A stretch of 33,496 nucleotides of DNA from Streptomyces flaveolus. Lineage in GTDB: Bacteria > Actinomycetota > Actinomycetes > Streptomycetales > Streptomycetaceae. Location: NCBI RefSeq assembly GCF_000716535.1, contig NZ_JNWV01000060.1:1-33496 (forward strand), written 5' to 3'. A program made the translations under genes and the position numbers. Below, in pieces: positions 6,670-33,439 of this stretch (position 1 is its first letter; each line of letters begins with the position of its first letter). The notes under the pieces were generated by a model, which was not told where the DNA came from, ran no database searches, and saw nothing but the letters and a program-made list of their open reading frames with translations.

Positions 6670-7035
6670 TCAGCCCTGGGAAGCGGATGCCGCCTGGATG
6701 GCCGCCCTGACCTGCTGTGCGAATCCTCGGACGGTGTAACCCTCAGGAAGGCTGTCGATCAGCACGATGTCGGAGATCGCGTTATTGAGGCGGAGGGGCA
6801 GGATCGCCTGGTACTCCGCCGAGTTGTACCAGGCGTCGACGGCAGCGCGGTCGGGGAACTCCATGAGGACGACCAGGCCTGGCCACGCTCCCTCCACAAC
6901 GCTGACCTCGCCGTTGGCGAGCCACTTGCCGCCGTAGGGTTTCACGGTGGCCTCAACTTGTTCGAGGTAGGACAGTCCAGCTTCGTTCGGGACGTCACCG
7001 GGGATGCGGAGGTGGTTGATCAGGTACGTGCTCAT
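6670..7035 (-). CDS. DUF1330 domain protein
   Basis: A 121-residue protein of the dimeric alpha+beta barrel DUF1330 family: YLINHLRIPGDVP, then YLEQVEATVKPYGGKWLANG, VVEGAWPGLVVLMEFPDRAA and WYNSAEYQAILPLR. These proteins are small, cytoplasmic and of unknown function, often beside oxidoreductases, as here. ATG 7035 is chosen over an upstream in-frame ATG (7056) because AAGGA lies 6-10 bases before it. Its promoter region (7036-7352) is shared with the divergent GNAT gene and carries two palindromes. Confidence 0.85.
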   Translation of the reverse strand: MSTYLINHLRIPGDVPNEAGLSYLEQVEATVKPYGGKWLANGEVSVVEGAWPGLVVLMEFPDRAAVDAWYNSAEYQAILPLRLNNAISDIVLIDSLPEGYTVRGFAQQVRAAIQAASASQG

Positions 7036-7089
7036 GTCGGTCCTTCCGGGTTGCACTGCTGGCTCATGGGCTTCGTTCGAATCCTTTTA

Positions 7090-7105
7090 GATTACGAGCA
7101 TAATC
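7090..7105. promoter_or_regulatory. Inverted repeat upstream of the DUF1330 gene
   Basis: GATTA-cgagca-TAATC, an AT-rich perfect 5-bp repeat with a 6-base spacer in the divergent promoter region, about 55 bases from the DUF1330 start. It shares TAGATTA with the hydrolase promoter site (1047-1053 and 7088-7094). It may overlap the minus-strand promoter. Confidence 0.4.
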
Positions 7106-7140
7106 GTAGGCTCGGCATGTCGGCGCCGCCACCGGAGCCA

Positions 7141-7164
7141 GATAGATGCTCTATGACATCTATC
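7141..7164 (+). promoter_or_regulatory. Perfect operator-like inverted repeat between DUF1330 and GNAT genes
   Basis: GATAGATG, an 8-base spacer, then CATCTATC: a perfect 8-bp inverted repeat. A 20-base stretch that includes the right arm (7154-7173) is identical at 1058-1077 upstream of the hydrolase. The geometry of 8-8-8 suits a dimeric regulator such as a TetR, MarR or HxlR type. The broken TetR at 4740-5347 is one candidate regulator. Confidence 0.65.
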
Positions 7165-7352
7165 ACGTGGACGTCCGGCGGCAGGAGCTGGACGATGGGC
7201 GCGTAAGCCGCCCGCACCGTTCCTGCGCCACCGGATCCCGGACGCGGCCGCACGAACGCATGTGTTGCGGCATCGCGGAACCGCGACGGAGTTCTCCGGC
7301 GCCGTGCCGTCCGCCGCCCCTCCCTCTCACCGGCAAGAGGAGACTTGAATCG

Positions 7353-8195
7353 ATGGCATGGTCTGTTACCGACAGTCCCGAGGTGTTCCGGTCCGCGGCG
7401 GAATCCTTCGTTTCCGCGCGTCCCGACCTGCACACCATGCTGCTCTCCGGGCTCGACTCGATCGAGCGTCTGCAGTCCAGGGGTACGACGCCGCCCACGT
7501 GCCTGGGATGGTGGCGTGACGCGGACGGGGCCCCGACGACGGGCGCGTTCGTATGGACTCCCCCCCATCTGCTGACCGCGAGTAGCCTTTCCCGGGCCGC
7601 GGCGACGGGCCTGACCCGGTTGCTGTCCACCGACGCCCACCCGTGCACCGGGCTGCTGGCCGACGAAGCGTCGGTCCGCGCCTTCTCCGAGGCCTGGGAA
7701 GCAACGACGGGCACGGCCCCGAGCGACGGACCGCGTCTTCGCCTCCACCGCCTTGAACAGCTCGTGCCGCCTGGCGTCGCCCCGCCGGGTGCACCGCGGG
7801 TGGCGACCTGGGACGACCGGCCTCTTCTCCACGACTGGTGCACCCGCTTCGTGGCGGAAGCCGGCCCGCTCGGAGCCGATCTCGACAGGTTCGTCGACGA
7901 GCGGATCACTCAGGGCGGCTGGCGGTTGTGGATGGTCGCGGGCGAACCGGTGGCCATCGCAGCGATGACCACCCTCGTGGCCGCCACCGCCCGCGTCACC
8001 CCGGTGTATGTGTCGCCCCACCACCGCGGACGAGGCTACGGTGCCGCCGTCACCGCAGCCGTTTCCCAGGCCGCGCGGGATGCTGGCGCGGAGCACGTCC
8101 TGCTCTTCACCGACCTTTCAAACCCGACCAGCAACCGCCTGTACCAGCGCATCGGCTACCGGCCTGTCTCGGACTACCGCATCGTGGCGCCCTGA
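7353..8195 (+). CDS. GNAT family N-acetyltransferase
   Basis: A 280-residue protein with a C-terminal GNAT domain. TPVYVSPHHRGRGYGAAVTA contains the acetyl-CoA loop R-G-R-G-Y-G (about residue 226), and SNRLYQRIGYRPVSDYRI is the standard family ending. The N-terminal 140 residues (PEVFRSAAESF, RPDLHTMLLSGL, CLGWWRDADG, AFVWTPP) are a variable half found in this acetyltransferase subgroup. The ATG follows AAGAGGAGA at 7335-7343. The 5' leader contains the operator at 7141-7164. A fragment of a paralogue lies at 1983-2260 and perhaps the end of a third at 1-38. Substrate unknown. Confidence 0.9.
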   Translation: MAWSVTDSPEVFRSAAESFVSARPDLHTMLLSGLDSIERLQSRGTTPPTCLGWWRDADGAPTTGAFVWTPPHLLTASSLSRAAATGLTRLLSTDAHPCTGLLADEASVRAFSEAWEATTGTAPSDGPRLRLHRLEQLVPPGVAPPGAPRVATWDDRPLLHDWCTRFVAEAGPLGADLDRFVDERITQGGWRLWMVAGEPVAIAAMTTLVAATARVTPVYVSPHHRGRGYGAAVTAAVSQAARDAGAEHVLLFTDLSNPTSNRLYQRIGYRPVSDYRIVAP

Positions 8196-14668: not shown

Positions 14669-16501
14669 TTACAGAAGGTCCCCCTCTGCGTCGACGTACC
14701 CGAACGCGTTGGCCATGTGCGCCAGAGCCTCCCGCAGAAGGTGCTGACGCTCTCGCCGGTCCATGGCGGGTGCGGCCGTGACGGTGACGGCCATCTGCGG
14801 CCTGGGGCCGTTGTCGTTGGGGCCCAGCGGCGACAGGTCGACGAGCGTGTCCAGGACCGGCAGGACGCCGTTGTCGGCGGGCTGTTCGCACGTCATCCGC
14901 AGTTCCGTGGTGGGCGGGGCGGCCCATGACAGCTCGGCCGGGTCGCCGACGACGTCGGGCAGCAGTTCGGCTGCCGTCTCCCAGGCGGCGAGCAGTACGG
15001 CCTGAATCTCGTCGAAGCCCAACCGCGTGTGCCCACCGGGCCCGAGGGCCGCGGCCCACGCGTCCGGGTTCTCGATCAGGACGTCCGCGCAGGCGATCAC
15101 GGTGGACTCCATAGCGGTGGGCAGGGCGAGCATGATGGAGGTCTTCACGGCTGGGTCGCCGTCCGGTCCGGTGATCGTGCACGTGTAGCTCAGGGAGCGG
15201 GACGAGTTGCCGAAAGGCCCGCGCTCCCAGCGAGCGGCGGGAAGCTCCGCACCCCGGCGCCGGGACAGCATCGTCACCGCACCGGCCACAGCGCTGTACG
15301 GAAGTTGCTGCTCAAGCAGCCTGCGCCGGGCTGTGGTGACCTCCAGCGCGCCCGGGTGGGCCCAGGGCAGGTTCACCAGGGCGCGCAAGCGCAGCGCCAG
15401 CGTCTGACCGGCGGTCCCGACCTCTGCCGACCGGCCCTGGTCCAGGCCGAACCGAGGAAGCGGCTGCCACCGCCACACGCCTCGGCCCGAACACGACAGT
15501 CGGCCCGAACCCCATGACCCGCCGTCGAGGTCGACGCTCCGAGCGTCGGCCGGGATCACCCACGGGGTGTCCGAGTCGGCGGGAAGGTGGGGGAAGCCGA
15601 TGGCGGCGAGCGGGTCCTGACCTCCTGGGGCACGCCGCCCGGCTTCGACGATGGCCTGCCAGACGGGCGCGGCGACGGCGACCGGGGGTCGGCCGGGCAC
15701 CAGGCACAGCACCCATCCCGGCTCGCCGTCGACCTCGTGGTGCAGATCCTGCAGAGCAGCCGGGCCCTGCGCCCACGCCTCTCCTGCCGGCTGTCCGAGG
15801 CCCGCGTCGGCCAGCTGCGCGTAGGCCGCACGCATCTCCCGCTCGCGGTCGGGCAGGCCCTGCCCCACCCGCAGCCGGCTGTCCGGCCCGGCTTCAGAGA
15901 CGGCCTGCCGCACGAGCTCGGTGAGGGCCTGAGCGGTGGGCATGCCAGAGACCCGGACACCGGCGGAGAGCAGCTGCTGTATCTCGGGCCGCGGCAGCCA
16001 GTGGGTGCTGTCGCCGTCCCGTATCGGCACGGCGACCGTGTCCGTGCGTGGAGAACCAGGCTTGCCCACCGGCGCCGGCACGACGAACAACGTGCCAGCG
16101 GCCTGCTCGGGGACGTAGATGAACATCACCCGCTCGCTGTCCGCACCGGACCATCCGACGCGCACTCCGCGTGGAGCTGGGGTGATCCACTGACGGATCA
16201 GCTTGCGGATCTGGTCCACGTTCACTGCGGCCGGGTCGAGGCCGACGATGCGGTCCAGGACCTCTTCGTCATGCTCGAGTCGGGTGGCGATGCCGATGAC
16301 GATGAGTCCGCCGCCCCCGTTGGCGAACGCCGCAACGTCCTTGGCGAGTTCCTCGACCGCCTTGGCGTCCGCCAGCTGGTACGGACCGCCCTTCGCATCG
16401 AGCCACTGCGTCTCGCGCAGTTCGAGCAGGGCGACCGGCTCATTGCCGTCCAGCACGGCCAGCGCGCTCTTCAGATCCTTCACCACCCCGGCAGTATCCA
16501 C
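14669..16501 (-). CDS. Large AlbA_2 (Schlafen-type) domain protein
   Basis: An intact 610-residue protein. The N-terminus carries an AlbA_2/Schlafen core: LELRETQWLDAKGGPYQL (27-44) with the conserved acidic/Lys pattern, then ELAKDVAAFANGGGGLIVIG (51-70), and VGLDPAAVNVDQIRKLI. AlbA_2 proteins bind nucleic acid and some are nucleases. Residues 150-610 match no family I know, with Trp/Pro-rich patches. ATG 16501 lies inside the sequence following the truncated SDR gene. No clear ribosome site is seen, so a nearby start is possible. It stands alone, without an obvious operon partner. A defence or regulatory role is an inference. Confidence 0.8.
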   Translation of the reverse strand: MDTAGVVKDLKSALAVLDGNEPVALLELRETQWLDAKGGPYQLADAKAVEELAKDVAAFANGGGGLIVIGIATRLEHDEEVLDRIVGLDPAAVNVDQIRKLIRQWITPAPRGVRVGWSGADSERVMFIYVPEQAAGTLFVVPAPVGKPGSPRTDTVAVPIRDGDSTHWLPRPEIQQLLSAGVRVSGMPTAQALTELVRQAVSEAGPDSRLRVGQGLPDREREMRAAYAQLADAGLGQPAGEAWAQGPAALQDLHHEVDGEPGWVLCLVPGRPPVAVAAPVWQAIVEAGRRAPGGQDPLAAIGFPHLPADSDTPWVIPADARSVDLDGGSWGSGRLSCSGRGVWRWQPLPRFGLDQGRSAEVGTAGQTLALRLRALVNLPWAHPGALEVTTARRRLLEQQLPYSAVAGAVTMLSRRRGAELPAARWERGPFGNSSRSLSYTCTITGPDGDPAVKTSIMLALPTAMESTVIACADVLIENPDAWAAALGPGGHTRLGFDEIQAVLLAAWETAAELLPDVVGDPAELSWAAPPTTELRMTCEQPADNGVLPVLDTLVDLSPLGPNDNGPRPQMAVTVTAAPAMDRRERQHLLREALAHMANAFGYVDAEGDLL

Positions 16502-21128: not shown

Positions 21129-21896
21129 TCAGATCGGTTTGTCCTGCTTCTCGGTGGGGCCCTTCGGTCGCTTGTTGAGCCGGTAGCTGGGGCCGTTCAT
21201 GATGACTTGATGGCTGGCGTTGATCAGCCGGTCCAGCAGTGACTCGGCGACGACCGGGTTCGGAAAGAGGGGATACCAGTCGTTGGGTGCCCTGTTGCTC
21301 GTGATGATCAGGGACCGGCCCTGTCGTTCGGAGACGAGTTCGTAGAGGTCATCGGCCTGGGACGCGGTCAGCTGGCGCATGGCGAAGTCGTCGAGGATGA
21401 GCAGGTCGAGGCGGATGAGTTCGCGCATGCGTTTGTCCCAGGTGCGGTCCGCGTGGCCGCCGGCGAGTTCGGCGAGGATGCGGCTGGTCTTGGTGAAGCG
21501 GACGTTGGCGCCCTGGCGGACGGCCTGGTGGCCGAGGGCCTGGGCGACGTGTGTCTTCCCGACCCCGACGGGCCCGAACAGAATGACGGACTCGCCGGAG
21601 TGGAGCCATCGCAGGGCGGAGAGGTCGCGGATCTGGGCGGCGGGCAGTTTCGGGGAGGCGGCGAAGGCGAAGCCCTCCAAGGTGGCCTGCTGCTCGAACT
21701 TCGCTCTGCGCAGGCGCCGTTCGAGAGCGACGGACTCGCGGCGGGTGATCTCGTCCTGGCAGAAGACCTGGAGGAAGTCGAGGTGCCCGAGCTCGCCCTT
21801 CTGGGCCTGGGTGAGGCGGGCGTCGAGGGTTTCCAGCATGCCGGACAGTCGCAGTGTCTTCAGCGACTCGCGCAGGGCGGTGGTCATCACGCTCAC
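21129..21896 (-). CDS. istB: IS21 helper ATPase IstB
   Basis: A 255-residue AAA+ ATPase of the DnaC/IstB family. Walker A is GPVGVGKTH, Walker B LLILDDFAM, then SLIITSNRAPNDWYPLF (sensor region) and a terminal AVAESLLDRLINASH-like arginine-finger region. It promotes target capture and strand transfer by IstA. GTG 21896 overlaps the istA stop (GTGA), so translation is coupled. Frame is intact. Confidence 0.93.
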   Translation of the reverse strand: MSVMTTALRESLKTLRLSGMLETLDARLTQAQKGELGHLDFLQVFCQDEITRRESVALERRLRRAKFEQQATLEGFAFAASPKLPAAQIRDLSALRWLHSGESVILFGPVGVGKTHVAQALGHQAVRQGANVRFTKTSRILAELAGGHADRTWDKRMRELIRLDLLILDDFAMRQLTASQADDLYELVSERQGRSLIITSNRAPNDWYPLFPNPVVAESLLDRLINASHQVIMNGPSYRLNKRPKGPTEKQDKPI

Positions 21897-23514
21897 CGGT
21901 CGGCCTCCTCAGCATCGACGTCGGCGTGACCCTGGTCGTCGTGAACCTCGCCGGGGATCTGCGGGGGGATGGTGGCGGCGAACAGGCCCTCGGGGCCGTG
22001 AAGGAAGGCCGCGGCTCCGGCGTCGCCGGTCTCCGGTTCGGGGTCGGTTTCGGTGCCGGCGACCAGGATGCCCTTGACCGTCCGGTAGGACGGATCACCG
22101 ACCGCGACCGCCTTCGCGCAGGCGGCTTCGAGCCTGGTGTCGCCGTACTTCTTCCGAAGCCCAGGACCCCTTGGGCGGCGCGGAGCCGGTAGAGGGCGTT
22201 GACCTCGAGCAGTTGGTCGATCACCTGCCGGCAGGCGTCCCCGACCTGCGAGGCTTGGCCGCGGCACCAGATGGGCGTGCGCATCTGGAAGGCGATCTTC
22301 TCAGGCGGATAGTCATCCTTGTCGGTGCGTTTTCCCTGCTCAAGTGCCGCGTGCGTCTTGACCAGCTCGCCCTCGTGGAAGACCTGCACCATCGTGGCGG
22401 TGGAGCGGACATCGACACGGCGGCCGATCAGCTTCCAGGGCACCGAGTAGAGGGTGCGGCCGACCTTGATGTGGATGTCCGGGCCGACGGTGGCCTGTGA
22501 CCATCTGGCCAGCACGAACGGCTCCTCGTGCAGCGGCAGCAGGGCCTTGGCCTCCACCGCCTCGAACACGGACAGTGGCTTCGCCCCGTCCAGCGGCCGG
22601 CACTGCCGCTGACCTGCGACGTTCGTGGCCCAGAGCAGGGCCTCGGCCTGCATGTGCTCCAGCGAGGTGAACGTCCGGCCGCTCCAGAACGAGTCACGGA
22701 CGTAGGGCATGGGCCGCTCGACCCGTGGCTTGTCCTTCGGCTTCGACGCCCGTGCCGGATCCACCAACGTCCCGTAGTAGGAGGCAAGTTCGGCATACGA
22801 CCGGTTGATCTTCGGGTCGTAGAGGTCCGGCTTGTCGACCCCGGTCTTGAGGTTGTCCGGCACCAGGCGACGCGGGACGCCGCCGAAGAAGCGGAAGGCT
22901 TCCGCGTGTGCGAGGGTCCAGGCGTGCTGGTCCATGTGCGTCACGGGGCGGACGAACATGTGCCGCGAGGCTGGCAGCACCATCACGAACGCCCAGATCC
23001 GGTGCCGCTTCCCGCTGGTGGGGTTGATCCACTGCCCCAGGAAGCCGTAGTCGATCTGGGCCTCCGAGCCCGGCTCGACGTCATCCCGCAGCACCGTTAC
23101 CTTCGAGCGGGCCGCCTCGTCGGGCAGGTTCTCATGCACCCAGCGGCGGAACGTCGTGAGTGACACCCTCAACTTGCCCTCGTCGCGGAGCCGTTGGTGG
23201 ATCGTGGTGACCGTCGTGGTCTTCAGCAGTTCCTTGACGTAGTCGCGGTGCGGCTCGATCTCGCCCCACCTGACCTGGTTCAGCTTCCGGCTCGTGAGCT
23301 CGGGGAACCAGCTCTTGAGCAGCTTGGCCCAGTCCGCCTCGCTCATGGGCGGCCCGCCTGGGGTGATCCTCGCCTTCTCCGCCGGCGCCAGGTACTTCCT
23401 GATCGTCTTGCGGTCCACTCCCAGCGAGGCGGACACCTGGCTCTTGGACCGGCCCGCGTACCATTGCACGTAGATCTCGACGATGTCGACCACGGTGAAC
23501 GTTCTCCTTGCCAT
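21893..23514 (-). pseudogene. istA: IS21 transposase IstA with a single frame break
   Basis: From ATG 23514 it has the N-terminal helix-turn-helix (IVEIYVQWYAGRSKSQVSAS, VDRKTIRKYL). The DDE integrase core follows (GSEAQIDYGFLGQW, RRLVPDNLKTGVDKPDLYDP and the ELASYYG region), then the C-terminal barrel (YSVPWKLIGRRVDVRSTATM). After LRAAQGVLG the frame goes wrong; LRKKYGDTRLEAACAKAVAV and the proper ending lie in another frame. One missing C near 22159 (GGC(C)TTCGG) explains it: repaired, the gene is 540 residues and ends in the GTGA overlap with istB. If the break is real, the element cannot transpose alone. Confidence 0.88.
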
Positions 23515-23720
23515 CCGGTGCGTCCGTCGGCCTCTCGGCTCGCGGATCGAGGGCCTGCGACGCTCCGAGAGGCCCAGACCCTCAACCCGGGCACCGGCAT
23601 GCCCATGGGGAACCCGGCCGATTCGCAAGGAAGAACCAATCCATGATCAAACCACTCGAAACAGGGAACATCACCCCAGTTCGAGCATGGTCGGCGGCAC
23701 CATCGATGGTCGGCGCCCCA

Positions 23721-25396: not shown

Positions 25397-26025
25397 ATAC
25401 GCAACTTCCGCCACTTGGTCAACGACTTCCCTGCCCACGCGGTGATCGTCGGCGAGAACGGTGTCGATCCGCTTGGTCCTCGACCCGTTTCTGTCCGACG
25501 CACGGCGCATGCTGCGCGAAGAGGACATCTGGGAAGGCCATCCCGCAGGCCTGGCGGGCGGAGCTGAAGTGACCATCGCGGTTGAGCTGCGAGGCTTCGA
25601 CGACGATGTTGACGCCAAGAGCGTCCTGTCCAGCGCCGCAGTGCTTCGATCCCTATGTAGCCCGGCTGACCTACCGCTTCGCCCCTCGAACGGAGGTAGC
25701 AACCGGCGACGGATCCCAGGTGCAGCCCACCAGCCGGCCGCTGACCGCGAAGGACTACGACGTCGTTGTCTTCGCTGGCGAGCGCGAGACCAACGACGTA
25801 CGCGCCATCCGCCGCGAAGTGGCCCTGCGCGTCCTGCCAGCCCTGCGCGACGCCGAGGCAGACCAGCACAACTGGCGGCGCAGTCCCATGCGGGATCTCC
25901 TCGAACGACTGCCCCTGGACCCGGTGAACCTGGAAGCCACCGCCTCGGCGATCGCCCCCGCTGTCAACCAGCTCACCAAGGACAACAACGTCGCCAAGCT
26001 GGTGCTCTCCGTATCGGACCGGACT
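25397..26025 (+). pseudogene. OLD-family ATPase/nuclease remnant, Walker A deleted
   Basis: IRNFRHLVNDFPAHAVIVGENGV is the start of an OLD-type AAA nuclease, where the Walker A Gly-Lys-Ser should follow. Instead, another frame begins at once with IRLVLDPFLSDARRMLREED, IWEG and EVTIAVELRGFDDDVDAKSV. About 23 or 26 bases holding the P-loop are gone. A second break near 25642 moves to FDPYVARLTYRFAPRTEVAT, then PLTAKDYDVVVFAGERETND, RREVALRVLPALRDAEADQH and VNQLTKDNNVAKLV. No TOPRIM domain follows. The true start is not visible; homology begins about 25397. Function, by family, would be phage defence. Confidence 0.65.
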
Positions 26026-26169
26026 GCCGGGGTGCGTCGTGCCTGCACCGGTCTCCCGGTCGCGCGCTGGGCTGCCTGCCGTCGGCCGGGTCCGCGCGGG
26101 TCGCGGCCGGCGCTGTGCCCGGCGGCTCGGCTCGCTGCAGCGCTGGGGTTGGGCCTGCGCCCGGCGGCC

Positions 26170-26424
26170 CGCGTGATGCCGCTCGCCTCCGTCTCGCTCG
26201 GGATCATCCCGTTCACCGCCCAGCGCACCGTGTGGCCCCTGGAAGCGTTCTACGTCCACGACGACACCACGGCCGTGGTCGAGACGCTGACAGCGGAGAT
26301 CAAGGTGACGCAGCCGCGCGACGTCGCAGACTACGCCAAGGCGTTCGCCGGACTCGCGGAGATGGCCGTCTACGGCGCCGCGGCCCGCGCCCTCATCCAG
26401 GCCGCGATCGACGCCCTGGAGTGA
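26170..26424 (+). pseudogene. C-terminal DUF5753 piece of a helix-turn-helix regulator
   Basis: ASVSLGIIPFTAQRTVWPLE, AFYVHDDTTAVVETLTAEIK then VADYAKAFAGLAEMAVYGAA and RALIQAAIDALE is the end of a DUF5753 protein, the C-terminal domain of XRE-type (Scr1/WhiJ-like) regulators in Streptomyces. The N-terminal HTH is missing. In frame, this piece is joined to the OLD remnant, giving a chimeric 280-codon frame (25582-26424). The adjacent small gene and DUF6415 gene are usual neighbours of such regulators, so the regulator was probably complete before the OLD fragment replaced its 5' part. Confidence 0.65.
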
Positions 26425-28056: not shown

Positions 28057-31000
28057 TTGACGACGGTGCGCCCCACGCATCTCACGGAACGGGTCGGCGT
28101 TAGCTTGGTCAGCCTCCAGGTGGTGTCAGAGCTGGGATGGCTGTTTCGTGAGCAGGAGACCAGCGATGTCGGAATCGACGCACAGCTGGAGGTCGTGCTC
28201 GGCGCGAGCATGAGCCCGGGTACCTCCGGGAAGTCGACTGGCCGACTGCTGGCCGTGCAGATCAAGTCCGGGCCTAGCCAGTTCGCCGGCGCGGCCGATG
28301 GCGGTTGGTGGTATCCCTGCGACGCCGCGCATGTCGAGTACTGGACGAGCCACTCGCTGCCGGTCGTCGTCATGCTGGTCGACACGGGAACCCGCAGCGT
28401 CTACTGGCAGCACGTCAATCTCACGACGTGGTGTCCACGGGCAAGCACTTCAAGATCTTCGTCCCCGCGGCCCAGCAGCTCGATACGGCCAACGCCGACG
28501 CGCTGGCCGCTCCGGCCCGCTCTAAACAGGGCGCCGACCCCGTCACCGAGGCCGCCGATCGTCTGCCGGCGGAAACCCGTCTTCGGCTCCTCAAGGCCCA
28601 CCGTGCCGGGCGGGCCTACGCGGCGCCGCTGGCCTTGCTCCTCGCCGACTCCGATCCCGCCCACGCCGTGCGCGTACTGCTCACCTCACCCCCTCCCTGG
28701 CTGACGAAAGCCGACACCGCGCACATGGAGGACGTTTGGAGGATCACCGCCTCTTACGCCGTCAGCCACGAACTGGGCATGCCGACGGTGAGCGCGCTGG
28801 AGCGGGCCGCCGCCGTATCCGCCGACAGCCGGGGCCGCCTCCTCACTTTGGCTGCACTGGCGGCCGCCTACCAGGGAAGTCCTCAGGCGGTGTCACTGGC
28901 CGACCAGGCCGGGGAAGAAGGCGACACCCTTCTCCTGGCCGTCGTCCGGGCGGTGATCGACTCCCCGCAACGGATGCCCGAACACGTACCCGACGTCGTG
29001 CAGCAGGCTCTGGCCGCCGGAGACCCGGCCGCCACCGCCGACGCCAACGTCCTGCGCTTCACGGCCCACTGCCACGTCACCGCGGGCCGCCACGACGAAG
29101 GCGAGGCCGTGCTCGAAAGGGCGCTGCGCCTCACGCCCGGCGATCCTGACATACAGGCCGAACTTGCACGGTGCCTCCTGTACCGCAACGCGGTCGGGGC
29201 TCCCCGGCAGGCCTTCCTCGACATCGGCCGGGCCATGCGTCTGGCGTCGGCCGCGAGCGCCGAGTACCGGCGCTGGCGGGGCCCGAGTATTCGGGCGGCG
29301 CGCGTCCTGCTTGATGCCCGTGTCATGGCCGGCGACATCACTGCCGCCATCGGGACAGCGTTGGCCGAACCTGAGGGGGACGCGCAGGATCCGGAGACCT
29401 TCAGCCAGGAACTTCTGGTCGAGGCGGTCCGGGTGGCCAGCCAGGCCGGTCAGGAGGAACAAGCTGCCACCCTCGCCGAGAGCGTGACCGGCGAGGGCGA
29501 CCGGCTGCAGTTGCTGGCCCACATGTGCGACGCCGCGGCGGGCAGCAGCCGGGAGGCGCGCATCGCCGCCTGGGAAGCCGCGGCTGCCGGCGCAGGCAGC
29601 GAAGACCAGCGCGCCATGGCCGCCTACGCCCTGGCCGGTCTCGGGGTGTGGCCCGTTCCCCACCTGGAGCGCCTGCACGCTGAAGGCGCCCTCGCCGAAG
29701 CGCTCTACCCACCCGCTGGGCGACGGCCGACGCTGCGCGTGGTGACGACGCAGCTGCCGTCCGGCGCCTTCGCCACTGGGAGTCTCGAAGTGTCGTGGCA
29801 GCGGCGGGGCTGGTCGTCCAGTACGACAAGCAGGGCGAGCACGCCCTGGCGGCGGAGGCCGCCGAGCGGGCGGGTCGGCGCTTCGGCGACACCTCGCTCC
29901 GGGCCCTTGCCGTCGACCTGTGGGAACGGGCCGGCGACCGGGAACGGGCCCGGATCGCCGCGCTGACCCTGGTGTCCCGCCCCCTCCTGCCCGACCGAAT
30001 GCGTGGCCGCCTGCGGCGCGCCCTCGTCCAGTGGGCCGGGGAGCGCGGGGACTGGGGCGACATGGAGGACCATGCACTGGCCGGGCTGGCCAAGGAGGCG
30101 GGCATCGACCACGTGATGGCCGCCGAAGGAGTCGGCCGCGCGCTGCCGTCCCCGGCTATGGACTTCGCGTGGGCGGCCATCCACGCCCAGGTGAGGAACA
30201 GCAGCCTCGAGACCGCGCGCGACACCCTGACCCGGTTCGCGCCCCAGGTCCGCAACGAGCAGGACGCGCGGGCCTGGCTCACGCTGACCCGTTGGTCAGG
30301 TTGGACCCCGGCGCTCGCCGAAACAGCACTCGGCCTGGCCGAACACTTCCAGCCGACGGACACCGAACTCTCCGCGCTCCTCACCGCGGCTGTCCTTGCC
30401 GCGACCGGAGAGCCACCGCAGCCCGTTGGCGACGTCAACGGATCCGCCTCCGCCCTGGAGGGGGAGACGCGGCACGCACTTGAGCTGCCCGAGCCGCTGC
30501 GCGAACGCCTGATACGCCTCCTGGCCGAGCTGCCTCCGAGTGCGGTGCTGACCCCTGTCACAGGCGGCGCGCACGGACTCGCACGACGCCTCGAACAGAC
30601 CCTGGGGCGCCGCGAAGTGCTCCTGGAGGCGACGGCCAGCGGGGTACGCGCCGGACAGCTCCCCGCCGACATGCTTGCCGCAGTGGCGCAACAGCCCGTC
30701 ACCCTGACCCTTCTCCAGCGCGCGGCCGGCGTTTTCCCCGCAGGGAGCACCGACCCCGTGCACACCGCCGCCGAGCGGAAGGCCGTGCACGAAGCGCTCG
30801 GCCGGACCGCCGTCGTCGACGTCACGGCTTTGGCACTGACCGCCTTCCTGCCCGGACGCCTCGGCGAGATGAGGGCGGCTTTCGCGACCACACCGTCCCC
30901 CACCGCCGTGTGTGGCGACGTACTCAACACCTGCTACAGCCTGCGCGAGACGGAACGGTCGGCCGGCGTGCTCGGCGTACGGGGCGGCCGACCCTTCATC

Positions 31001-31888
31001 GCCGCGTACACCGACCAGGACCGGCAGGAGATCCGGCGCCTCGCCACCGCTCTCTCCCCGGCCGTCCCCGGTCTCCAGCCGGTCGAAGTGCCCGACCTCA
31101 CCGAGGTCCGCCGCAGGTTGAGCATCTCAGGCCCGACCGACGACTCGGTTGACGCCTGGCTATCCGCCGCCCAGCTCGCCTTGGACATAGGCGCACCACT
31201 GTGGTGCGATGACGCGTTCCTACGGAGCCAGCTGATCGCAGAGGGCATCCCCACGTTCGGATCGCTCGCCCTGCTGCACGTCCTCACCGAGCACGACGAC
31301 TACCCCGAGTTCACCGCCGACCGCCTGGACGAGGACCTCCGCGTCCTGCTGACGTCCCAGGTGGTCGATCTGCCCGTCACCCTGGCCCTCCTCGCCGAGA
31401 CCGCCGCCGCCGACGGCTGGAAGGCGGGTCCCGCCGCCGCACCCTTCAGCCGTCCCCACCTGTGGGAGACCGCAGGAGGCCTTCCCCTTTGGACCGCGGC
31501 CGCCGAGCAGGTGTGGACCCACGCCCCCGGCGAACTCGGTGGCTGGGTCCGCGTCGCGGCCCACGGGGCGACAGTACGGGCTCAACCCGCCCACCTGCTC
31601 CGAGCCATCCTCCTCCTAAGCATCGAAACCCTTCTCGCTGTCGGCATCGGTCCGCAGTCGGCGCACGAGGTAGAACGCGCCGCGCTCGACGCGCTGGGCA
31701 CTGCCGTCCGGGCCGTGCAACGAATTCACGAGGTGACCGAGCAGCCGGTCCCCGTCCTCCCCAACCCCACCGACCAGGAATTCCGAGGACTCCTGCGCGC
31801 GGGACTGCGACGGGCGTTGACGGCACGCCGCTTCTCGGCTGCTCTGGCGACCGCCATCGTCGATGAAGCCGTACCGCTGGAGACGTGA
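28057..31888 (+). pseudogene. Giant DUF4365-TPR-PIN-like protein with two frame breaks
   Basis: TTG 28057 has AAGGG eight bases upstream. Residues 1-124 are a DUF4365 nuclease-like domain: SELGWLFREQETSDVGIDAQ (24-43), then LAVQIKSG (65-72), giving the E...D...Q-x-K pattern of the PD-(D/E)XK fold. After NLTT the next frame supplies VSTGKHFKIFVPAAQQLD. About 700 residues of helical, TPR-like repeats follow (for example AGRHDEGEAVLERALRLTPG). Near 29786 the frame changes again (VAAAGLVVQYDKQGEHALAA). The last 370 residues include a PIN-like core: AVVDVTALALTAFLPG, ALDIGAPLWCDDAFLRSQLI and GIPTFGSLALLHVL. One added G at each break (near 28429 and 29786) gives exactly 1,278 codons. Intact it would be a two-nuclease-domain cytoplasmic protein, probably for defence. 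Confidence 0.7.
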
Positions 31889-32650: not shown

Positions 32651-33439
32651 ATGTCCCGCAGTTTGTTCGAACGTATCCGTAAGGTGCCTGACGAGGTCAT
32701 GGACCCACGCTTCCGTTTTGTGCGTGATGACCACATACCTCAAGCCACTCGACGTTTGATGGATGAGACCTTCGTGACCTTCCAGGGCGCCGACCGCAGC
32801 TTCGCCCGTGAGTTCCAGACGGGTGGCTTCTCGCCTCGGGTCCTTGAGCTGGCTCTGTTCGCCGCGCTGCAGGAACAGGGGCATGTCCTGGAACGCCCCG
32901 GTGGCGCGCCCGACTTCCTCATTGGAGGGCCGCATCCGGTGGCTGTCGAGGCCACCACCAGCAATCCTGCCCAGTCCACGCCTGCCGCCGATCTCGATCC
33001 GCCCAAGGGTTCCCATCCTCTTGTTCCCAAAGACCTGGAGGACGCGGAGAACGAGTTCGTGCTGCAGTGCGCCAAGGCCCTGCGCCGCAAGCTCGAGAAG
33101 CGGGATGCCCAGGGACGCAGCTACTGGGAACAGCCGCACACCCAGGACCGGCCGTTCGTAATCGCTCTGGAGTCCTTCCATCATCTCAGTGCCCTGTTCC
33201 ATACCGTTGCGCCGCTGGCCAGCTATCTTTACGGGCGCAGGGACGTGGCCACGCGTGACGAGCACAGCACTCTTGTCCTGACCAGTGAGGAGATCACGGA
33301 GCACCGGCACAAAGACACCGTCATCCCCAGCGGTCTATTCACCCGGCCTGAGGCTGCGCACCTGTCGGCCGTGGTCTTCTCCAACAGCGCCACGGTTGGT
33401 CACGTCCGCTGGAGTGGTGTATCGACGGCCACTCGGTGA
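32651..33439 (+). CDS. PD-(D/E)XK-like unknown protein, probably cut short
   Basis: A 262-residue frame. FSPRVLELALFAALQEQGHV, ERPGGAPDFLIGG then PHPVAVEATTSNP gives E...PDF...E-x-T, spaced like the active site of the restriction-endonuclease fold, with Thr where Lys is usual. Later blocks are LEDAENEFVLQCAKALRRKL, PFVIALESFHHLSALFH and VVFSNSATVGHVRWSG. The end SGVSTATR looks abnormal and a minus-strand frame starts ending just beyond, so the natural C-terminus was probably removed. No ribosome site; a TAGAGA box at 32637 suggests a leaderless transcript. Third-position GC is lower than in neighbours, pointing to transfer. Confidence 0.6.
   Translation: MSRSLFERIRKVPDEVMDPRFRFVRDDHIPQATRRLMDETFVTFQGADRSFAREFQTGGFSPRVLELALFAALQEQGHVLERPGGAPDFLIGGPHPVAVEATTSNPAQSTPAADLDPPKGSHPLVPKDLEDAENEFVLQCAKALRRKLEKRDAQGRSYWEQPHTQDRPFVIALESFHHLSALFHTVAPLASYLYGRRDVATRDEHSTLVLTSEEITEHRHKDTVIPSGLFTRPEAAHLSAVVFSNSATVGHVRWSGVSTATR

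Follow-up and report, generated by a model that had tools for sequence, protein, structure and literature searches.

We have examined a broken gene in a 33,496-nucleotide stretch of Streptomyces flaveolus DNA (hereafter the window), which is contig C60 of a draft genome of 10.35 Mb in 232 contigs. The gene is best read as a damaged copy of a stand-alone protein in which a DUF4365 head related to the nuclease DREN is joined to a TPR scaffold and a PIN tail, one branch of the TPR-PIN conflict family that PF20698 marks. We give a probability of roughly 0.55 to the reading that this protein is an abortive anti-phage device, in which oligomerisation would trigger cleavage by the DREN and PIN domains. 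Its basis is the architecture itself, the conservation of both sets of active-site residues, the lack of a neighbour gene shared by the loci compared and the lack of a detectable GreA/B-C domain, which is part of a published conflict system with the same core. The trigger, the oligomerisation, catalysis by either domain and the anti-phage role are what we infer from this anatomy. The parts of the gene are as follows.

28057-31888, forward strand: the whole broken gene, with DUF4365 head, long TPR scaffold and C-terminal PIN domain, across three forward frames
28057-28431, forward strand: head piece in frame 1 (open frame 28057-28704), a DUF4365 or DREN-like PD-(D/E)XK domain
28428-29714, forward strand: first part of the TPR superhelix, in frame 3 (open frame 28305-29966)
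29705-31888, forward strand: remaining TPR, helical linker, PIN domain and helical tail, in frame 2 (open frame listed as 29795-31888)
28426-28434, forward strand: first frame break, from frame 1 to frame 3, by alignment to one-frame proteins
29705-29714, forward strand: second frame break, from frame 3 to frame 2, by alignment to one-frame proteins
30491-30796, forward strand: helical linker from TPR to PIN, the expected site of a GreA/B-C domain; it covers residues 233-334 of the third piece
30812-31294 (end approximate), forward strand: PIN domain PF20698 by Pfam match, equivalent to residues 917-1057 of the relative P0011
30818, 30917, 31208 and 31211, forward strand: PIN acidic positions D342, D375, D472 and D473 of the third piece, by alignment

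Residues of the window's head are counted here from the TTG at 28057 and those of the third piece from the open frame start at 29795. According to Pfam, the head piece is DUF4365 (PF14280), with E 1.8e-24 and a score of 86.8 bits where the cut-off is 24.3. The second piece is TPR_14 (E 2e-5) and the third is PF20698, 'PIN-TPR-GreABC', with E 1.1e-6 and a score of 29.4 bits where the cut-off is 27.8. The gene aligns to P0007, a one-frame protein from S. nogalater, whose residues 1-121, 122-548 and 550-1274 lie at 28066-28428 (frame 1), 28428-29708 (frame 3) and 29711-31885 (frame 2) with identities of 96.7%, 95.1% and 96.0%. Alignment of P0011 divides the gene into the identical three pieces, with residues 122-550 at 90% and residues 548-1275 at 87%. 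A first-pass annotation, made from the sequence letters, had proposed this gene, its order of domains and its two breaks, and it was right, since the three pieces follow on from one another along the one-frame proteins; the motifs VVDVTAL, WCDDAFLR and GIPTFGSLALL, which it assigned to the PIN domain, are indeed present at the C-terminal end.

Is the fusion genuine? A four-sequence alignment used as the query returned 27 proteins (P0001-P0027), and 19 of them (P0003-P0021) are encoded in one frame, are 1255-1310 amino acids long and have both DUF4365 and PF20698, the latter with E values of 2.6e-9 in P0011 and 1.2e-13 in P0021. The head is missing from P0001 and P0002, five proteins (P0022-P0026) have the head and no PF20698 match, and P0027 has a different head, in which bDLD3 scored only weakly (E 0.084) and below its cut-off. 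A protein search with the C-terminal piece listed two proteins, the full-length relatives falling outside its length range. Because both Pfam domains are found in 19 one-frame relatives, a chance fusion or a pair of adjoining genes can be ruled out, and the earlier proposal of a nuclease head, a TPR scaffold and a PIN tail in one polypeptide is borne out. Homologues always encoded as separate genes had been named as the result that would speak against it; what we found is a conserved fusion, and the architecture stands. When these 19 are aligned, head residues D38, E42, Q65 and K67 and PIN residues D919, D952, D1050 and D1051 are invariant (19/19 in each case). The fusion also occurs in the more distant one-frame forms L035, L036 and P0047 (1261, 1216 and 1200 amino acids). 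Their PIN motifs align with the others, and the DUF4365 match is strong in L035 and P0047. Identity to P0011 is 31% for L035 over residues 4-1138 and 31% for L036 over 6-667, with a second match over 861-1203. A scan of contigs found no relative when the query was the window piece by itself; with alignment A2 it gave 12 loci, ten of them matched in the head region only, and L011 and L020 proved, as judged from their identical overlap, to be the two parts of a single full-length gene interrupted where contigs end.

Judged by its sequence, the head is a relative of DREN, the nuclease of the SPARDA short-Argonaute systems, and this relation is new. The head piece matches the solved DUF4365 proteins 9qbp and 9qbq and the DREN-APAZ protein 9jsb with E values of 1e-6 to 5e-6, and the profile of 19 matches 9jsb with E 3.5e-9, 9qbq and 9qbp also being matched. 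This homology to solved structures backs the PD-(D/E)XK assignment made in the first pass. In the alignment to 9jsb, residues D41, Q60 and K62 of NbaDREN, which the text of PMC12205087 gives as catalytic, correspond to D41, Q68 and K70 of the window, and the D, Q and K positions are kept in all 30 aligned heads, that of the window included. Of the head residues singled out earlier, D37, D41, Q68 and K70 hold in 30/30 heads, whereas position 25 is E in 9/30; the invariant acidic neighbour is instead E45 (30/30). As described in PMC12205087, NbaDREN alone is a monomer with no detectable activity and becomes active as a tetramer on an Argonaute filament. The DUF4365-APAZ/Ago complex, according to the text of PMC10810196, degrades DNA non-specifically and loses this activity in a QK mutant.

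An AlphaFold2 model of the window's own third piece (697 amino acids, with 45 relatives) has a mean predicted local distance difference test score (pLDDT) of 88.9 and a predicted template modelling score (pTM) of 0.82. It shows TPR helices at residues 1-204, a helical linker at 233-334, an alpha/beta stretch with the PF20698 motifs and a helical tail; the linker consists of helices 233-245, 258-285, 291-298, 302-307 and 321-334, with only a two-residue bridge at 314-315. The model of L011, a fragment of 1200 amino acids, contains a confident TPR superhelix at about 139-764 and is poor in the head, linker and PIN (mean pLDDT 68.7). The Foldseek rows shown for it are chiefly TPR proteins, or so we take them to be from their names. 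For the third piece one row only had E < 0.001; the rows shown from Foldseek and VIA-align are chiefly helical-repeat chains, and at least one fifth of the rows in the VIA list span model residues 1-256 only. Because helical-repeat proteins filled these structure searches, the PIN fold rests on Pfam and on the published assignment. Its four acidic positions, D342, D375, D472 and D473, are D in all 46 rows of alignment A5, and among them are presumably the metal-binding residues, as we assume from PIN families; P0027 has E at the second position in a 13-row alignment and D in A5. In two other, unrelated-looking systems PIN catalytic residues are required for phage defence, and one of these is a single protein without an antitoxin, as reported in the text of PMC13092281.

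PF20698 is named in Pfam as the 'PIN domain associated with the TPR-GreAB-C-PIN system'. As described in the main text of Kaur et al. (2021, PMC8195603), this conflict system has a constant region of TPR, GreA/B-C and PIN, preceded at the N-terminus by EAD10 or one of 13 effectors, with the DNases 'REase, HNH' among them; its genes are mostly stand-alone and the protein is predicted to act on hijacked RNA polymerase. Does the window family possess the GreA/B-C part? Pfam gave no PF01272 row in 12 core proteins (one of them a duplicate, L005 being the same as P0029) at E up to 10 or 5, a range in which HMMER filters drop most weak rows. In hhalign, 16 Gre proteins from the order of the window matched A5, the A5 linker, A2 and A4 with probabilities of 0.3, 1.0, 0.1 and 0.1%, whereas two helicases ending in a Gre domain, which served as controls, reached 96.8 and 98.0%; these controls are helicases and not a published family member bearing GreA/B-C, and a strongly diverged copy would fit the result too. 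The place where GreA/B-C would be expected is predicted by AlphaFold2 to be helical, apart from the two-residue bridge. In the same taxonomic order as the window, GreA/B-C is also employed in another way by some large proteins: L063 (4452-9839, reverse strand) and L064 (917-7015, forward strand) encode proteins of 1795 and 2032 amino acids, helicase-like by eye, with a C-terminal Gre domain.

The same core also occurs under other heads. In P0029-P0046, P0048-P0052, L043, L046 and, with DUF4062 and a helix-turn-helix (HTH) domain, P0053, the arrangement of TPR, linker, PIN and tail is shared with the DUF4365 form and the N-terminus differs. Besides P0053, four of these N-termini were scanned (P0029, P0046, P0048 and P0052) and had no Pfam match, the remaining ones being judged from precomputed Pfam annotation only. 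For a tree of the C-terminal core parts we chose a subset of 29 rows that leaves the window out (14 with DUF4365, 13 with other heads, one with DUF4062 and one unknown). A single branch with support of 99/99 separates all DUF4365 rows from the rest, as happens in 99% of 200 bootstrap trees, shuffled heads requiring a mean of 10 changes; L035 and others stand on long branches whose joins may be false. Since the DUF4365-headed proteins, the distant ones among them, form one clade on the core tree, head and core appear from the sequences to have stayed together. Six core loci (the window, L020, L035, L036, L008 and L043) had no neighbour gene in common at E 1e-6, in a comparison made with a simple gene caller on uneven flanks, L020 having upstream sequence only and L008 and L035 little of it. 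This lack of a shared neighbour fits a one-gene device.

How might such a protein work? In the unbroken relatives the chain would probably be inactive at rest. The TPR superhelix would bind an invader or a damage cue and gather several chains, upon which the DUF4365/DREN heads, inactive as monomers and active as tetramers in SPARDA, would degrade DNA non-specifically and the PIN tail would cut RNA, so that cell death or dormancy would precede phage release. We hold more tentatively the idea that these proteins are one-protein immune receptors without an NTPase or binding to RNA polymerase; the TPR superhelix would then be the invader receptor whose assembly activates a DNA and an RNA nuclease, and the DREN effector, known from the guide-dependent SPARDA system, would also work under a protein-sensing scaffold. 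The model of Kaur et al. would instead place the protein on virus-hijacked RNA polymerase, with PIN cutting the extruded transcript and the N-terminal nuclease serving as a suicidal back-up. The PIN family, the TPR scaffold, the variable heads and the stand-alone gene all agree with what the text of PMC8195603 describes, but the polymerase-binding GreA/B-C was found neither by Pfam nor by hhalign and its site is predicted to be helical, and we consider this mode of action unlikely for the window family. Could the host survive? A restriction-like device, in which the head would cut invading DNA selectively, by its modification state or structure, and PIN would degrade the transcripts, would accord with the PD-(D/E)XK active-site residues kept in DUF4365 and with the lack of an antitoxin or immunity gene common to the loci compared. 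We nevertheless regard it as doubtful, as the Pfam-scanned proteins contain no specificity domain or methylase and the characterised DUF4365-APAZ complex cuts non-specifically once activated, according to the text of PMC10810196.

It is also conceivable, if improbable, that PIN acts solely in sensing or as a structural element, binding RNA and not cleaving it, with DREN as the sole effector, or the reverse. Such a division would suit the presence of the same core in relatives in whose heads no nuclease family was recognised, and the first PIN aspartate is replaced by E in L035 (in the second alignment, of 13 rows); against it stands the uniform D at all four positions throughout A5. The substitution in L035 also counts against our preferred reading, that of an abortive device with two nucleases, and several other observations weigh on the same side. 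PF20698 is weak in distant members: L035 scores 19.6 bits and P0047 26.0, and neither reaches the cut-off of 27.8. No solved PIN was matched by the predicted PIN fold in result lists filled by helical-repeat chains, which is not evidence of its absence, and the head (residues 1-138 of the L011 model) has a pLDDT below 50, with a plausible order of strands and helices. Ten neighbours of relatives contained no recognised defence family (Pfam, E 1e-5), and no relative was confirmed in viral contigs in two scans with two short patterns each. In the open-licence literature we found no phage challenge, biochemistry or expression data on the family, no paper joining DUF4365 with a PIN domain or with Streptomyces and TPR, and none under PF20698, PIN-TPR-GreABC, TPR-GreAB-C-PIN or GreAB-C with PIN and TPR.

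The two frame breaks of the window copy may reflect very recent decay or an assembly error, and either fits. That both are assembly or sequencing errors, the gene being whole in the living strain, is a serious possibility that we put a little below even odds. The assembly is a draft in 232 contigs, the pieces are 95-97% identical to P0007, and they deviate at 5 of 299 otherwise invariant columns, within the range of 0-10 seen in 18 of the 19 one-frame relatives (P0021 deviates at 41). However, incomplete members are common: G261 and G295 matched over the C-terminal core part only, and a DUF4365 or PF20698 match is missing in 7 of the 26 proteins P0001-P0026, short contigs accounting for some. 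Programmed frameshifting at the breaks was dropped as needless, because P0007, at this level of identity, is a single open frame. The 392 genomes sampled in the genus contain four convincing members, and three of these, the window included, look incomplete; in G261 only residues 836-1212 of P0029 are matched, with 2 TGA codons inside the stretch, and in G295 only residues 866-1212. L009 (9148-10278, reverse strand) and L010 (8777-9817, reverse strand) are these two partial copies of the PF20698 core. The five DUF4365-headed proteins P0022-P0026 stop before or within PIN, and by eye the tails of P0025 and P0026 appear out of frame, which suggests recurrent decay.

The family is rare and patchy at the sensitivity used. 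Of 296 genomes sampled across the phylum, two contain PF20698; one is the genome of the window itself, which has one PF20698 place and one further DUF4365 place. Within the genus, the third piece gave matches in 6 of 392 genomes, counting the one it comes from; two of these, G190 and G269 (24 and 21 bits), were dropped as probable chance, the frames in G190 not resembling the family by eye. The other-headed form in L043 and L046 lies on a mobilizable Arthrobacter plasmid; beside it, at 5186-8760 of L046, a DUF1016 N-terminal protein, a PDDEXK nuclease and an ATP-binding protein are annotated. In a search for the DUF4365 form on plasmids, no record covered 80% of P0011.

The first-pass annotation placed the gene among broken defence genes, and some of its neighbours are indeed defence-like, namely a GajA-like stretch and a PD-T7-1-like frame. 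Features noted elsewhere in the window are listed here.

25582-26424, forward strand: stretch like GajA of Gabija (PADLOC PDLC00070, E 2.1e-25, covering just profile positions 103-222 of 596), with a DUF5753 match after it
32651-33439, forward strand: PD-T7-1-like frame (PADLOC PD-T7-1, E 3.2e-54, profile positions 114-347 of 452; PD-T7-5, E 6.3e-32)
21129-23628, reverse strand: IS21 element with IstB helper ATPase and IS21 transposase
14669-16501, reverse strand: frame of 610 amino acids that carries a Schlafen AlbA_2 domain (E 5.7e-7) but is unmatched by PADLOC at E 0.1

The GajA-like and DUF5753 stretch looks like a remnant or a misjoined frame, and part of it (25720-26424) is resembled, at 39%, by the neighbour at 6682-7563 of the DUF4365 gene in L039. 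The PD-T7-1-like frame, a partial defence-like gene, begins about 760 bases downstream of the gene studied here.

How does the protein compare with known systems? With SPARDA (DREN-APAZ or DUF4365-APAZ) it shares the DUF4365/DREN head and the same D, Q and K, and it differs in that TPR-PIN occupies the place of APAZ. The PADLOC profile Aga_REase-PNTD1-PNTD2, whose PNTD section we take to be the APAZ part, matches P0011 only over profile positions 12-148 of 429, and none of the 20 window frames put through Pfam had an Argonaute or PIWI match. Membership in SPARDA can therefore be rejected, as APAZ is missing and only the nuclease part of the profile is matched. Short DUF4365 proteins also have the head in common with the window protein, but are far too short for the TPR-PIN core. 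L012 and L013, both of 313 amino acids, are 59% and 48% identical to P0011, and DUF4365 is the sole significant Pfam match of L012. A conserved short DUF4365 family is found in L017 (9953-10915), L038 (5747-6739) and L039 (8500-9522, reverse strand), the proteins being about 320-340 amino acids long and mutually 63-70% identical.

The protein also resembles the system of Kaur et al. The first-pass annotation knew of no named system with this order of domains, which was wrong in part, since the main text of PMC8195603 had already in 2021 predicted a core of TPR, GreA/B-C and PIN with exchangeable heads, REase included. The window protein, too, has the PF20698 PIN at its C-terminal side and a long TPR region before it, as indicated by Pfam TPR_14, the predicted superhelix and structure matches to TPR chains. 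The effector at the N-terminus is exchangeable, DUF4365, DUF4062 or Pfam-unmatched N-termini standing on one core, and the gene is stand-alone with few conserved neighbours. In contrast to the published system, the window family has no detectable GreA/B-C, and its head is of the DUF4365/DREN type; DUF4365 has 0 occurrences in the main text of PMC8195603, although such a head may be in its tables, since the text lists 'REase' heads. What is new here is the relation of the head to DREN, together with the lack of a GreA/B-C detectable by Pfam, profile comparison or predicted fold. Because the defining GreA/B-C feature was not found, we do not file the protein as a strict member of the system and regard it as a DREN-headed variant on the same TPR-PIN core that lacks a detectable GreA/B-C. 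The published prediction for the family rests on docking of GreA/B-C onto RNA polymerase, and a clade that has TPR and PIN, a head related to DREN, an effector known from experiment, and no detectable GreA/B-C opens this docking model to a test: either the TPR-PIN core can act independently of the polymerase, or a docking part is present and has escaped notice. Through its head the family is further connected to SPARDA, for which activation by tetramerisation is solved, and this offers a concrete hypothesis in which the head would be multimerised and loss of DNA would be expected.

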